From an uncultured Lachnospiraceae bacterium (GTDB lineage Bacteria > Bacillota > Clostridia > Lachnospirales > Lachnospiraceae), in assembly GCA_902762955.1 (NCBI GenBank), contig CACWQH010000022.1, forward strand, positions 1 to 39,825: DNA of 39,825 nucleotides, given 5' to 3'. Position 1 is the stretch's first letter. Every line of letters begins with the position of its first letter. Below are positions 3,257 through 31,543 of the stretch, one piece after another. The translations under genes and the position numbers were made by a program. A model generated the notes under the pieces. The model did not search any database. It was not told where the DNA came from and worked only from the letters and a program-made list of their open reading frames with translations.

Positions 3257-3291
3257 ATATAATCAATATGTATGTATTTTTGTATGTGTTA

Positions 3292-3567
3292 CGGGCGTGA
3301 GCCTTGTCACAAACAATAAGTAATGTGAAAGGGTATAATGAGAAGACAGGTAGAGAATAATTAACCCGATTTGCGTAAAATCAATAGCGAAAATTCTTTA
3401 TGAGGTGCGTTAAAAAAATCGAACTGTTTGAGCAAAGCGAGTTTTCGATTTTTAGCACCTATAAAGAATTTGAGCGCATTGATTTAGCAAATCGATGGTT
3501 TGTTCTCTACCTGTCTTCTTATTATATCCTTTCATATAGTAATAAAATGTGACAAGGCTTACGCCCG
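3292..3567. repeat. Long palindromic element E1 (covarying family)
   Basis: A 276-nt nearly continuous inverted repeat. The outer arms CGGGCGTGAGCCTTGTCAC and GTGACAAGGCTTACGCCCG are followed inward by GAAGACAGGTAGAGAA/TTCTCTACCTGTCTTC, GATTTGC/GCAAATC, AAATTCTTTAT/ATAAAGAATTT and AAAAATCGA/TCGATTTTT. It closes on the tip TTTGAGCAAAGCGAGTTT. The blocks CCCGATTTGCGTAAAATCA, the tip, and CATTGATTTAGCAAATCGAT recur in the element at 18237-18553, although the stems there differ. It starts 36 bases after the XRE stop codon and ends 27 bases before the next promoter. There is no T tract, no transposase and no plausible coding frame. Confidence 0.85.
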
Positions 3568-3593
3568 CGCCACGCCCCGCAACATATAAATCC

Positions 3594-16482: not shown

Positions 16483-17931
16483 ATGGGAACAAACGAACAA
16501 ACAAAAGCAGGAGGATGGCGCACCAATAAGTGGATACGCGCAGCTATACCTGCACTCTTACTTCACTGTAGTATCGGTACTGTTTACTGTTGGTCAATAT
16601 TCAGCCAGGAAATTGCGGATTACATAGGTTCAACCAAGAAGGCAACAGAATAGGCTTTCTCCTTTGCAATATTTTTCCTTGGTATGTCAGCAGCATTTCT
16701 TGGAAATGTAGTTGAGAAGGATATCCATAAGTCATCACTTATTGCAACTATCTGTTTTTCAGTAGGTATGGCACTTACAGGATATTTTATCTACTACGGT
16801 GGTGAGCATCAGGGAAGCAAGCTCGCACTCTTTGGAATTTATATCAGCTATGGTTTCATCATGGGTGTAGGACTTGGTACAGGTTATTTATCACCTGTAA
16901 AAACTCTCATGCTGTGGTTTGAAGATAGAAAAGGTCTGGCTACCGGTTTGGCAGTTGCAGGTTTCGGTGCTGCAAAGGCTATCGCAAGTCCGATTATGAC
17001 TAAGATGCTTTCAGGTCTTAGCGGAACTAATCCGGACGGTACATCAGATGGAACCGGTGTTTATAAGATGTTCTGGATTCTTGCGTGTGTATATTTTGTA
17101 ATGATGTTTGTAGGACATTTATTACTTAAGAAGCCTGAGGGATGGCATGAGCCACAGGGCAAGGATGCTAAGCCAAGTATCATACAGGTACTTAAGACTA
17201 AGCCGATTGGAAATTATATCGGAATCTGGGTTATGTTCTATATAAATATTACCTGTGGTCTTGCACTTATTTCACAGGAAAAGGCAATCGTAAAATGTAT
17301 CGGCCTTTTCGCTTCGGTCGGTATTATATCAACAATTTCTGCAATATTTAACGCAGGTGGTCGTCTTGGTTTCTCTGCATGGGCAGATACCATGAAGGAC
17401 AGAAATACTATTTATAAGCTTATATTTATTCTTTCAATAGCATTTACCGGACTTGTTATGTTGACTCAGGGTATTAAGAATGGTGAAGGCAATACTCTTC
17501 TTATATTCCTTGTACTTGCACTTATATTTATCGTAAATGCAGGTTACGGCGGTGGTTTCTCAAATGTACCTACACTTCTTTCAGACCACTATGGAATGGG
17601 AAGTATAAGTGCTATCCACGGAATTACACTTTCCGCTTGGGCATTTGCAGGTCTTACCGGTAATCAGGTTGCAACTATGATAGTTGAGAAGACTAATAAG
17701 TGGCTGTATGATGTCGGAGATCATGTTTACAAGACTGCTGCAGAGGCACAGGCACTTGGCATTGATTTGGATAAGGCTGATAAGGTTAGTCCTGTCGGAT
17801 ACCAGAACGTACTTTACTTCACAATAGTTATGTACATTATTGCTTTGGTTCTTTGCCTTGTTCTTGTAAGACCTACAGATAAGGCACTTGAAGCAAAGGC
17901 TGCAAAGAAAGCCGCTAAGGAAGGAAAATAA
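16483..17931 (+). pseudogene. OFA-family MFS transporter (oxalate/formate-antiporter-like) with one in-frame TAG
   Basis: A 483-codon frame, intact except for TAG at 16651-16653 (codon 57). The protein is a 12-helix major facilitator of the OFA family: helix 1 GTVYCWSIFSQEI, then TE*AFSFAIFFLGMSAAF in helix 2, LGTGYLSPVKTLMLWFEDRKGLATG in the helix 4 region, and NAGGRLGFSAWAD. In OFA relatives I recall Trp just before AFSxAIFFLGMSAAF, so TGG to TAG is the simplest change. Family substrates are oxalate/formate or other small carboxylates; the one here is unknown. The start ATG 16483 has AAAGGAAG upstream. An internal ATG at 16684 would lose helix 1. Either a fresh nonsense mutation or suppressed by readthrough. 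Confidence 0.85.
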
Positions 17932-17954
17932 ACTTCTGTTCATCGCAGTAAGAC

Positions 17955-18200
17955 AGATATCAGGTTGGTTAATATACTGAACAAAGAAAGCAGGCGACCT
18001 ACGTAACTCACATAGTTTCCTAAATCAGTACATTCAAATTCTTTATATTCGCACGAAACCGAAAACTCGCTTCGCTCAGACATTCTGGTTTCTGAGCGAA
18101 TATATGCGAATTCTCATTGCTGATTTGACGAAAACTATGCTCACGTTACGTAGGTCGCCTGCTTTCTTGTTTCAGTATTCATTAACCAACCTGATACCTG
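17955..18200 (-). repeat. Long palindromic element E2
   Basis: A 246-nt inverted repeat, in opposite orientation to E1 and E3. Arms: TATCAGGTTGGTTAAT (17958-17973) with ATTAACCAACCTGATA (18181-18196), then AAGAAAGCAGGCGACCTACG with its complement, which reaches CGTAGGTCGCCTGCTTTCTT at 18149-18168. Read on the minus strand it holds the family blocks TCAAATCAGCAATGAG, the tip TCTGAGCGAAGCGAGTTT and TGTACTGATTTAGGAAA. Stem sequences are unrelated to those of E1 and E3. Confidence 0.85.
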
Positions 18201-18236
18201 TAGCTTAAAACAGCACATACTGTGCTGTTTTGAGCT

Positions 18237-18553
18237 GTGGGTGCAGCAATGATGCTTGTGTATATCTTCACATATAATAAATTAAAATACAGGAGCTTAT
18301 ATAAATAAGATATGAATACAACATTTATCCCGATTTGTGTAAAATCAGCAACGAGTACATGAGATGATTTTGCACGTTTAAAACCAATATGTTTGAGCGA
18401 AGCGAGTTTATTGGTTTTGTGCAAAATCTTGAAGGTACGAGTGTACTGATTTAACAAATTGATGGATAGTTGTGTTTATATCTTATTTATATAAGCTCCT
18501 GTAAAAGTCAAAATATAAATGTGAAGATATACAAGCATTATTTCTGTACCCAC
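18237..18553 (+). repeat. Long palindromic element E3
   Basis: A 317-nt inverted repeat. Outer arms GTGGGTGCAG...ATGCTTGTGTATATCTTCACAT match the complement at ATGTGAAGATATACAAGCAT...CTGTACCCAC. Next come CAGGAGCTTATATAAATAAG/CTTATTTATATAAGCTCCTG and then GATTTTGCAC...AAAACCAATA/TATTGGTTTTGTGCAAAATC. It carries the family blocks CCCGATTTGTGTAAAATCAG, the tip TTTGAGCGAAGCGAGTTT and TACTGATTTAACAAATTGAT, collinear with E1. Confidence 0.85.
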
Positions 18554-18597
18554 TATACTGCGATAAACAGAAGTTTATATGCAGATGCAAGATTGCC

Positions 18598-18626
18598 TTG
18601 ACATTGGAGTAGGTATGGAGTAAAAT
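18598..18626 (+). promoter_or_regulatory. Promoter of the metal ABC transporter operon
   Basis: TTGACA (18598-18603) and TAAAAT (18621-18626), 17 bases apart, lie 20 bases after the four-way palindrome and 84 bases before the ATPase start. I see no convincing Zur or Fur box. Confidence 0.75.
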
Positions 18627-29908: not shown

Positions 29909-31441
29909 ATGACAGAGAAGATAAGCAGACTTATAGATGAGCTTTTAGCTTATGGTGTCAATGCAGGACTCGTTGATAAAGAGGATGAAACATATACAAG
30001 AAACAAGTTGCTCGAATTATTTGAGGAGCAGGAATATATCGAGGCGGGTGTAAGCAATAATGAGGCTGCTTCTTGCGGTACTAAAACAAATGAAAGACAG
30101 CTTTCAGAAATCCTTGATGATATGCTTTCAGTACTTTATGAGAAGAAGATTATGCCGGAGGATACCATAACCTATAAGGATTTATTTGATACTAAGATTA
30201 TGGGACTTCTTACACCGGCACCTTCGGTTATAAGAAGAGAGTTTGCATCACATCTTGCGAAATCTCCAAAAGAAGCAACGGATTATTATTATGATTTTTC
30301 AAGAGCAACTAATTATATAAGAGTTGACAGAATTAAGAAGGATGAGAAATGGCAGACATCTACAGAGTTTGGAGATTTGGATATCACAATTAATCTTTCC
30401 AAGCCGGAGAAGGATCCAAGAGATATAGCAAAGGCAGGTCAGGCTAAAAAGTCCGGCTATCCAAGCTGTCTGTTATGCAGGGAAAATGAAGGCTATGCGG
30501 GACATTTTTCACATCCTGCCAGACAGAATCATCGTATCATACCGATTACACTTGGCGGAGAAAACTACAATCTTCAGTATTCTCCTTATGTGTATTACAA
30601 TGAGCACTGTATAATATTTAATGACAAGCATATTCCTATGAAGATAGACAGGGATACCTTTGTAAAGCTTCTTGATTTTGTGGGACAGTTTCCGCATTAT
30701 ACTGCCGGTTCAAATGCAGACCTTCCGATAGTAGGCGGTTCTATCTTAAGCCATGACCATTTTCAGGGTGGTAATTATGAGTTTCCTATGGTGAGGGCTC
30801 CTTATGAGAAGGAGTTTACAGTTTCTGGTTATGAAGAGGTTCATGCAGGCATAATCAACTGGCCGTTATCGACCATCAGACTTCAGGCAAAGGATGCTGA
30901 TAAAATCGTAGAGCTTGCGGATCATATCCTTGGAAAGTGGAGAGCATATACCGATGAGGAGGCATTTATCTATGCCGAGACAGACGGAACACCTCACAAT
31001 ACAATCACACCGATTGCACGTATGAGAGGGGAGCTTTTTGAGCTTGACCTTGTACTTCGTAACAACATAACCACTGACGAGCATCCGATGGGTGAGTATC
31101 ATCCGCATCCGCAGTATCATCACATCAAGAAGGAAAACATCGGACTTATCGAGGTTATGGGACTTGCGGTTCTGCCTGCGAGACTTAAGGGTGAGATGGC
31201 ACACTTGGAGGAGCTTATACTTAAGGGTGAGGATTTGGCATCTGATGAAAGCATTGCTTCGCACGTTGACTGGGCTAAGGAGTGGATGAAGAATTATGAT
31301 GATATAAATGCATCCAATATCCACCAGATAGTTCAGGATGAGATAGGTAAGGTGTTTTCAAAGGTTCTTGAGTGCGCAGGTGTATATAAGTGCACAGAAG
31401 AAGGCAGGAAATATTTTGATAAATTCATAAATCAATTATAA
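29909..31441 (+). CDS. galT: UDP-glucose--hexose-1-phosphate uridylyltransferase (class II, Gram-positive type)
   Basis: A 510-aa GalT of the Firmicute class II family, unrelated in length to the ~350-aa E. coli enzyme. It moves UMP from UDP-glucose to galactose 1-phosphate. Family segments are YPSCLLCRENEGYAGHFSHP (metal-binding cysteines), the nucleotide-transfer region ILSHDHFQGGNYEFPM with the HxHxG-like HDHFQGG, and DGTPHNTITPIARM. Ribosome site TTAGGAGGG. It is the last gene of the galactose cluster, followed 20 bases later by a perfect 25-bp palindrome (31461-31543). Confidence 0.95.
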   Translation: MTEKISRLIDELLAYGVNAGLVDKEDETYTRNKLLELFEEQEYIEAGVSNNEAASCGTKTNERQLSEILDDMLSVLYEKKIMPEDTITYKDLFDTKIMGLLTPAPSVIRREFASHLAKSPKEATDYYYDFSRATNYIRVDRIKKDEKWQTSTEFGDLDITINLSKPEKDPRDIAKAGQAKKSGYPSCLLCRENEGYAGHFSHPARQNHRIIPITLGGENYNLQYSPYVYYNEHCIIFNDKHIPMKIDRDTFVKLLDFVGQFPHYTAGSNADLPIVGGSILSHDHFQGGNYEFPMVRAPYEKEFTVSGYEEVHAGIINWPLSTIRLQAKDADKIVELADHILGKWRAYTDEEAFIYAETDGTPHNTITPIARMRGELFELDLVLRNNITTDEHPMGEYHPHPQYHHIKKENIGLIEVMGLAVLPARLKGEMAHLEELILKGEDLASDESIASHVDWAKEWMKNYDDINASNIHQIVQDEIGKVFSKVLECAGVYKCTEEGRKYFDKFINQL

Positions 31442-31460
31442 ATAGACTATATTATGCATA

Positions 31461-31543
31461 AAAACATGGAACACCAAAAAGTTACACGCAAAGCTCACTG
31501 TCGCTCACGCTTTGCTTAGTAACTTTTTGGTGTTCCATGTTTT
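31461..31543. repeat. Palindromic element E4, perfect 25-bp arms
   Basis: Arms 31461-31485 (beginning AAAACATGGAACACC) and 31519-31543 are exact inverted repeats. In the 33-base loop GCAAAG (31488-31493) pairs with CTTTGC (31510-31515), closing on CTCACTGTCGCTCACG. That tip resembles, but is not the same as, the GAGCGAAGCGAG tip of E1-E3. It sits 20 bases after the galT stop and 24 before the next promoter, the same placement as the longer elements. Confidence 0.85.

Follow-up and report, generated by a model that had tools for sequence, protein, structure and literature searches.

The present study points to an undescribed family of capped hairpin elements that spread between stop signals. 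A core hairpin of ~140 nt occurs in dozens of copies per genome, at the 3′ ends of genes; the stems below it mostly vary between copies and are mostly kept at orthologous sites. The window, i.e., the whole 39,825-nucleotide stretch analysed from an uncultured Lachnospiraceae bacterium, holds three of these elements, and all three lie where a first-pass annotation of the letters had placed long palindromes: E1 at 3292–3567 (plus strand), E2 at 17953–18201 (minus) and E3 at 18237–18553 (plus). Their near-complete self-complementarity, also claimed there, amounts to 119, 101 and 122 pairs, respectively. Corresponding MFE z-scores against dinucleotide shuffles were −20.3, −16.1 and −20.0, and no shuffle (200 for E1, 200 for E2 and 100 for E3) equalled the native fold. 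The three also have their inner blocks in common in identical order, as had been noticed.

E1 is a single element that reaches 3283–3588 when its flanks are folded in. Its conserved core, as delimited by the covariance model R1, occupies 3361–3502 and its tip, the GC-AAA-GC variant TGTTTGAGCAAAGCGAGTT, 3425–3443 (both plus); an XRE-type regulator and an RlmL-like methyltransferase are its neighbours. E2 (core 18007–18143, tip 18064–18082, both minus) and E3 (core 18325–18469, tip 18390–18408, both plus) form the first and second members of a divergent pair, 35 nt apart, between genes for an MFS transporter and an ABC ATPase. This pair sits inside a 23-nt inverted repeat, the left arm of which (17928–17950) overlaps the MFS gene stop codon and the right arm of which lies at 18556–18578; a related enclosing repeat is found at the E2/E3 locus of UBA3820. 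In the spacer, a small perfect hairpin picked out by eye (18207–18231; A4, stem, 3-nt loop, stem, T4) reads, by its sequence pattern, as a bidirectional terminator, and similar spacer hairpins adjoin members of other divergent pairs. Several copies (3292–3311 of E1, L048, L049 and L137) have outer-stem modules in common, such as GGGGACGGTTCTTGTTGACAC and GGCGTGAGCCTTGTCACA, which resemble REP-type repeats and suggest nested palindromic modules. Elsewhere in the window, the arms of a perfect 25-nt inverted repeat flank a 33-nt loop (31461–31543), directly 3′ of the stop codon of a gene ending at 31441.

The first-pass annotation had proposed a covariance-model search, and this search found many copies. 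R1, a model of the ~140-nt core built on 27 sequences, located 45 full-model copies in the organism's own genome, dispersed over its contigs, plus 3 truncated at contig ends. Matches occurred in 12 of the 41 genomes searched, own included, which comprise 12 of 25 genomes of the genus and 0 of 16 outside it. Nine genomes (the own and 8 relatives of the genus) carry at least 10 copies each; G001, G014 and G017 carry 3, 8 and 1, and the matches in G001 and G014 are long hairpins with mainly the tip in common. A pattern scan of named genomes added at least 88 stretches, all titled Lachnospiraceae among the matches listed. The analysed set of 138 matches combines 92 from 80 of these stretches with 46 from the own genome; later counts use the 133 with a full hairpin, 5 being left out as cut or decayed. 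The 133 elements have a median length of 290 nt (186–399) and a median of 111 pairs (76–149), and they include 15 divergent pairs. Copies lie at or near the ends of own contigs C13, C28, C31, C50, C55 and C60 and of several G505 contigs. As this is expected if assemblies break at palindromes, copy numbers are probably underestimated.

The window gave no Rfam match at gathering scores, and positions 17900–18620 gave only weak, chance-level matches at E values up to 10, in agreement with the earlier remark that no named noncoding RNA family fits. Likewise, the E3 core matched nothing in annotated plasmid and phage collections, and one element from a viral contig matched nothing among the plasmids. 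A second, unrelated palindrome of ~350 bp (ACCGACCGAAGATA ... TATCTTCGGTCGGT) was seen by eye at ~60–440 of the reverse-complemented stretch L060 (G024, contig C95), and long palindromes of more than one kind may therefore exist in the genus.

The core covaries strongly. In an alignment of 95 sequences, which was fitted to the structure, 96.6% of the cells were paired, 29 of 45 pairs had changed on both sides, and the covariation score was 0.458, compared with 0.190 for shuffled and at most 0.076 for slid alignments. A MAFFT alignment of 27 sequences, with the structure predicted from it, gave both-side changes in 25 of 45 pairs. The core also has conserved internal loops, and in 22 comparisons with the flanks its identity was higher in 18, equal in one and lower in three. 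Several of these comparisons share sequences, and for two of them (L123/L086 and L174/L161) two-sided synteny is not established. The expectation of a conserved inner part and tip throughout the family was thus borne out.

The outer stems behave differently. A greedy pick yielded 62 elements whose left stems have at most one 9-mer in common. Beyond the edges of the core, these elements agree only in composition, GC-rich for ~16 nt, then A-rich on the left (17–28) and T-rich on the right (14–25). Since they were selected as distinct, the dissimilarity of their left stems partly reflects that selection, and a fair test of stem relatedness is to compare pairs by core identity. In the own genome (42 elements), pairs whose cores were 0.85 to 0.95 identical (86 + 57 pairs) had left-stem identity below 0.65 in 78% and 81%, against a random mean of 0.44 and 95th percentile of 0.67. 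In contrast, both stem arms were at least 0.67 identical in 11 of 13 syntenic ortholog pairs, the others being L178/L142 and L048/L101. Therefore the view of the stems put forward in the first-pass annotation changes. It had described covarying stems under selection on a folded molecule: the core does covary, and signs of such selection are present (below), whereas the outer stems of most copies are unrelated sequences and compensatory drift is not the source of most of their differences. Paralog stems are mostly not drifted versions of each other; they look, for the most part, like the terminator stems of different genes around one repeated core. Of the two, the core persists longer as a repeated unit, with stems being exchanged around it.

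By longest-ORF calls from our own script, 112 of the 133 elements have an edge within 100 nt of a stop codon. A convergent downstream gene, to which the core is antisense, follows 103 of the 125 elements with a called downstream neighbour. For 76 of these 103 genes, the distance from the element edge to the stop codon is −10 to 30 nt; for 12 it is below −10 nt, so that the arms reach into coding sequence. Only 4 of 117 elements lie between divergent genes. Runs of at least four T at +10 to +32 occur in 54% of 128 elements versus 37 ± 4% when shuffled, a moderate excess, and left-side A-runs in 48% versus 35%; a clear T-tract is missing from several stems. These sequence features support a predicted identity of the stems as intrinsic, often bidirectional, transcription terminators, with the core filling the terminator loop.

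Copying that corrects one arm by the other would leave equal numbers of G·U and A·C mismatches. Among isolated mismatches of the outer stems, counted on the element strand in a strand-symmetric alignment, G·U outnumbered A·C by 160:45 in the 133 elements and by 25:11 with one element from each of 28 clusters. Since this departs from equality, the folding of one strand appears to be selected. Specifically, the ratio was 26:1 where both neighbours run with the element, 69:18 where one runs with it and one opposite, and 40:23, a weak excess, where both run opposite. Selection on folding thus appears to act most where the element could be transcribed from its upstream gene. Another recount gave 101:34 for outer stems and 4:3 for the core, the latter too few to read. 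A count on RNA-folded pairs was set aside, as the folding rule biases it.

As looked for in a mobile element, the core stands at unrelated sites and relatives hold empty ones. Read by eye, 9 of 10 element-free alleles in relatives have an ordinary terminator: 4 of 4 at the L032 locus (G024, G022, G015 and G013; the G011 allele, L257, was left out as not interpretable), 2 of 3 at L177 (G015 and G022, with none evident in G013), and one each at L095 and L018 (both in G024, the empty alleles being among the matches listed). The E2/E3 locus in G024 is likewise an empty allele with ordinary terminators. This orthologous site of RGIG4472 (L214; G024, contig C102, 340–1490, minus) holds two extra ORFs along with the terminators in place of the pair, the larger HipA-like by eye. 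Decay by deletion was seen for L096 and L023 of the own genome, and for L157 and L168. No clean insertion with target duplication was seen in the alleles read.

We regard as somewhat probable that the elements are dispersed hairpin caps which sit in terminator loops, spread between them and have their stems lengthened by fold-back copying. The core would be a non-autonomous mobile unit that enters terminator loops via a putative enzyme. The stem would then be lengthened as flanking DNA is copied inverted by fold-back template switching, yielding palindromes of 200–400 bp, and folding would be kept through selection on element-strand transcripts. The capped hairpin may act as an oversized terminator or 3′-end insulator, most often between convergent genes. 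The L032 locus is consistent with this scheme, as filled RUG13380 and empty RGIG4472 have the terminator stem and left flank in common. Furthermore, the right arm of the filled site aligns to the inverted left flank of the empty site with a score of 20 (maximum 18.5 in 300 shuffles), where its match to the right flank (8.5) is inside the null. A shared stem was found in this one filled/empty comparison only; elsewhere the stem differs, which indicates that stem replacement also happens.

Those differing stems bear on another explanation, which we consider unlikely: that whole capped palindromes are duplicated and their stems later swapped for the local terminator by recombination or conversion. 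The terminator is unlike the filled stem at most empty sites read, and different elements can occupy orthologous sites (L046 versus L150; L148 versus L018). In the 15 own-genome pairs with core identity of at least 0.95, stems are mostly shared (median identity 0.81; 20% below 0.65). Thus whole units are copied too, and insertion of a bare core into a loop is not the sole mode, which lowers our confidence in the loop-insertion reading. Against duplication as the general route stands L032, where filled and empty alleles have the same terminator stem and left flank.

The tip bears on a further explanation, in which a recombinase or HUH-type enzyme acts on the folded single strand of DNA (REP-like or attC-like), the tip is a GNA mini-hairpin and terminators are tolerated targets. 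GNA triloops form very stable DNA mini-hairpins. The tips of 110 of the 133 elements parse as TGT.TGA-GC/AC-NNN-GC/GT-GAGTT. Their triloop is GNA in 96, which suits this explanation, and ANA in 14, which does not; the closing pair covaries from GC..GC (93) to AC..GT (13), with 4 wobble GC..GT and no AC..GC. The first-pass annotation had recognised a DNA mini-hairpin in the tip; the GNA count suits that idea, and RNA and single-stranded DNA are both possible. Eight loci found by the model in other genera all carry GNA, and all four bases occur at N outside the genus (A 25, C 7, G 2 and T 2 in 36 elements), though the search pattern itself fixed G and A and so leaves N as the one informative position of the triloop. 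The recurrence of divergent pairs in G329 and G569 and the biased orientation of the elements with respect to stop codons also accord with a DNA substrate. Conversely, the G·U excess that tracks the strand of neighbouring genes fits RNA better, and an association with a Y1 transposase is absent. Y1 transposase (PF01797) was not found in the own genome, which is 89% complete, and occurs in 2 of 9 strong carriers versus 6 of 28 other genomes (12 of those 28 without an R1 search). A RAYT partner was accordingly rejected. Taken together, we hold the single-stranded DNA explanation improbable, and the cap in a terminator loop is preferred.

An autonomous version with cargo was also sought. The ORFs beside the wide or clustered copies L111, L362 and L363 look like ordinary genes by eye, and no transposase or intron gene was recognised among them.

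That the family is a structured noncoding RNA acting in trans, or a regulatory 3′-UTR domain, in line with the folded RNA considered in the first-pass annotation, seems to us quite unlikely. The strong covariation of the core, its conserved internal loops, its conservation above the flanks in 18 of 22 comparisons and the strand-specific G·U excess all speak for an RNA. Nevertheless, in 103 of 125 cases the core and its downstream neighbour are antisense to each other, both neighbours are antisense in 40 of 117 copies, which leaves no evident transcript, and neither Rfam search, at gathering scores or at E up to 10, returned a credible match. Mutation alone, with template switching growing short terminator hairpins and keeping their arms alike without selection on folding, is very improbable: the one inverted-copy event at L032 and the 12 of 103 cases with arms running into coding sequence agree with it, but it leaves unexplained why one conserved core stands on unrelated stems, why G·U exceeds A·C and why the core is better conserved than the flanks.

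The tip reaches beyond the genus. Of 250 genomes searched in the family, 5, the own among them, contain an exact 17-mer of it; G262 has the same core architecture on different stems, and the G112 locus a weaker hairpin. With one genome searched per genus, the model matched 8 of 150; 7 of these 8 supplied the 8 loci that were read, each with its tip at the apex of a hairpin with 63–112 enclosing pairs. The pattern TGTYTGAGCGNAGCGAGTT occurs in 13 of 299 genomes of the phylum, own included, and in 10 of 214 genera (the Lachnospiraceae titles would make this phylum Bacillota); its reversed control gave no match in the 299 genomes among the matches listed. Copy numbers were 39 in G000, 36 in G505, 12 in G329 and 8 in G569. 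In 27 matches read from 11 of the 12 other genomes, the tip is enclosed by 33–100 pairs in windows of up to 261 nt. Thus, the 19-nt tip caps unrelated long hairpins elsewhere in the phylum. The same tip is also found on a palindrome at ~1500 of L327 (G067), whose arms of ~150 nt match almost perfectly (140 of 152).

An internal loop, GCGTNA/TTAGC, was first spotted by eye and then tested. Outside the genus, both motifs occur in 7 of 36 elements (mean 0.23 and maximum 2 in 300 shuffles) and are paired across in all 7; the other 29 lack one or both, and 1 element has the motifs on the wrong arms. A convergent downstream gene follows 20 of the 38 elements there with a called one, its stop 90–140 nt from the tip in 16 of 20. 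Since the other 18 of 38 face no convergent gene, the orientation rule is weaker outside the genus. Among viral contigs, 87 stretches carry the tip pattern, and the 80 of them that were read fall into 18 clusters; the 14 cluster examples listed have from 1 to 53 enclosing pairs. The largest cluster (36 AT-rich contigs; example L371, 1 enclosing pair) has the tip string without a hairpin. Only tentatively do we extend the cap reading to selfish or domesticated caps across the phylum, where a putative enzyme would read the 19-nt GC-GNA-GC tip, seat the cap in a terminator loop and prime fold-back copying of the flanks, so that long palindromes of any sequence would arise at the 3′ ends of genes.

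Among known systems, intrinsic terminators have a GC-rich stem followed by a T-tract directly 3′ of stop codons; the present elements resemble them in stem and location and, given the moderate excess of T-runs, in part also in the T-tract. Terminator loops are normally a few bases long, whereas the loop here would be a conserved hairpin of ~140 nt. IS1397 inserts in REP loops and group IIC introns insert at terminators; both prefer hairpins as targets, like the proposed cap. Unlike them, the copies at L111, L362 and L363 have no recognised transposase or intron gene. Integron attC sites stand in an integrase-adjacent cassette array; the copies here are dispersed over contigs. Conservation in ERIC extends over the whole element. 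Families of stem-loop repeats, ERIC among them, are in the available part of one report (PMC2267715) likewise intergenic, structured and present in many copies per genome, but each follows one sequence model, where our stems are mostly unrelated and the apical core alone is common.

REP, BIME and REPIN elements with RAYT transposases, as portrayed in the accessible portions of three papers (PMC3116915, PMC8266576, PMC3733652), are also dispersed, intergenic, palindromic and non-autonomous, and form inverted dimers with spacers that are sometimes themselves stem-loops. The 15 divergent pairs among our 133 elements, and those of G329 and G569, correspond to such dimers. In contrast, the palindromic unit of REP is short, 20–40 bp, with stems of 5–13 bp in a table (both in the accessible part of PMC3733652), compared with 76–149 pairs and a median of 290 nt here. 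Furthermore, the apex alone is conserved in our family, it probably sits in terminator loops, and no association with a cognate Y1 (TnpA-REP) transposase was seen. The literature searched includes papers on REP/REPIN elements, stem-loop families and template switching, but no description of this hairpin family was found in it, which is weak evidence of novelty as subscription papers lie mostly outside the coverage, and no paper was found on elements that insert in hairpin loops or beside terminators. One tip string in the available text of two plant papers, on juniper and mistletoe and on Platycladus reference genes, is taken to be chance.

With one conserved, structured core seated on many palindromic stems that are unrelated, the family allows selected covariation to be told apart from palindromes made by copying. 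If the cap does spread between terminators, termination sites would be landing pads for an undescribed class of element, and the tip motif would be a handle for finding its enzyme. Studies of template switching and of the stability of palindromes would also gain a natural series of related examples of 200–400 bp.
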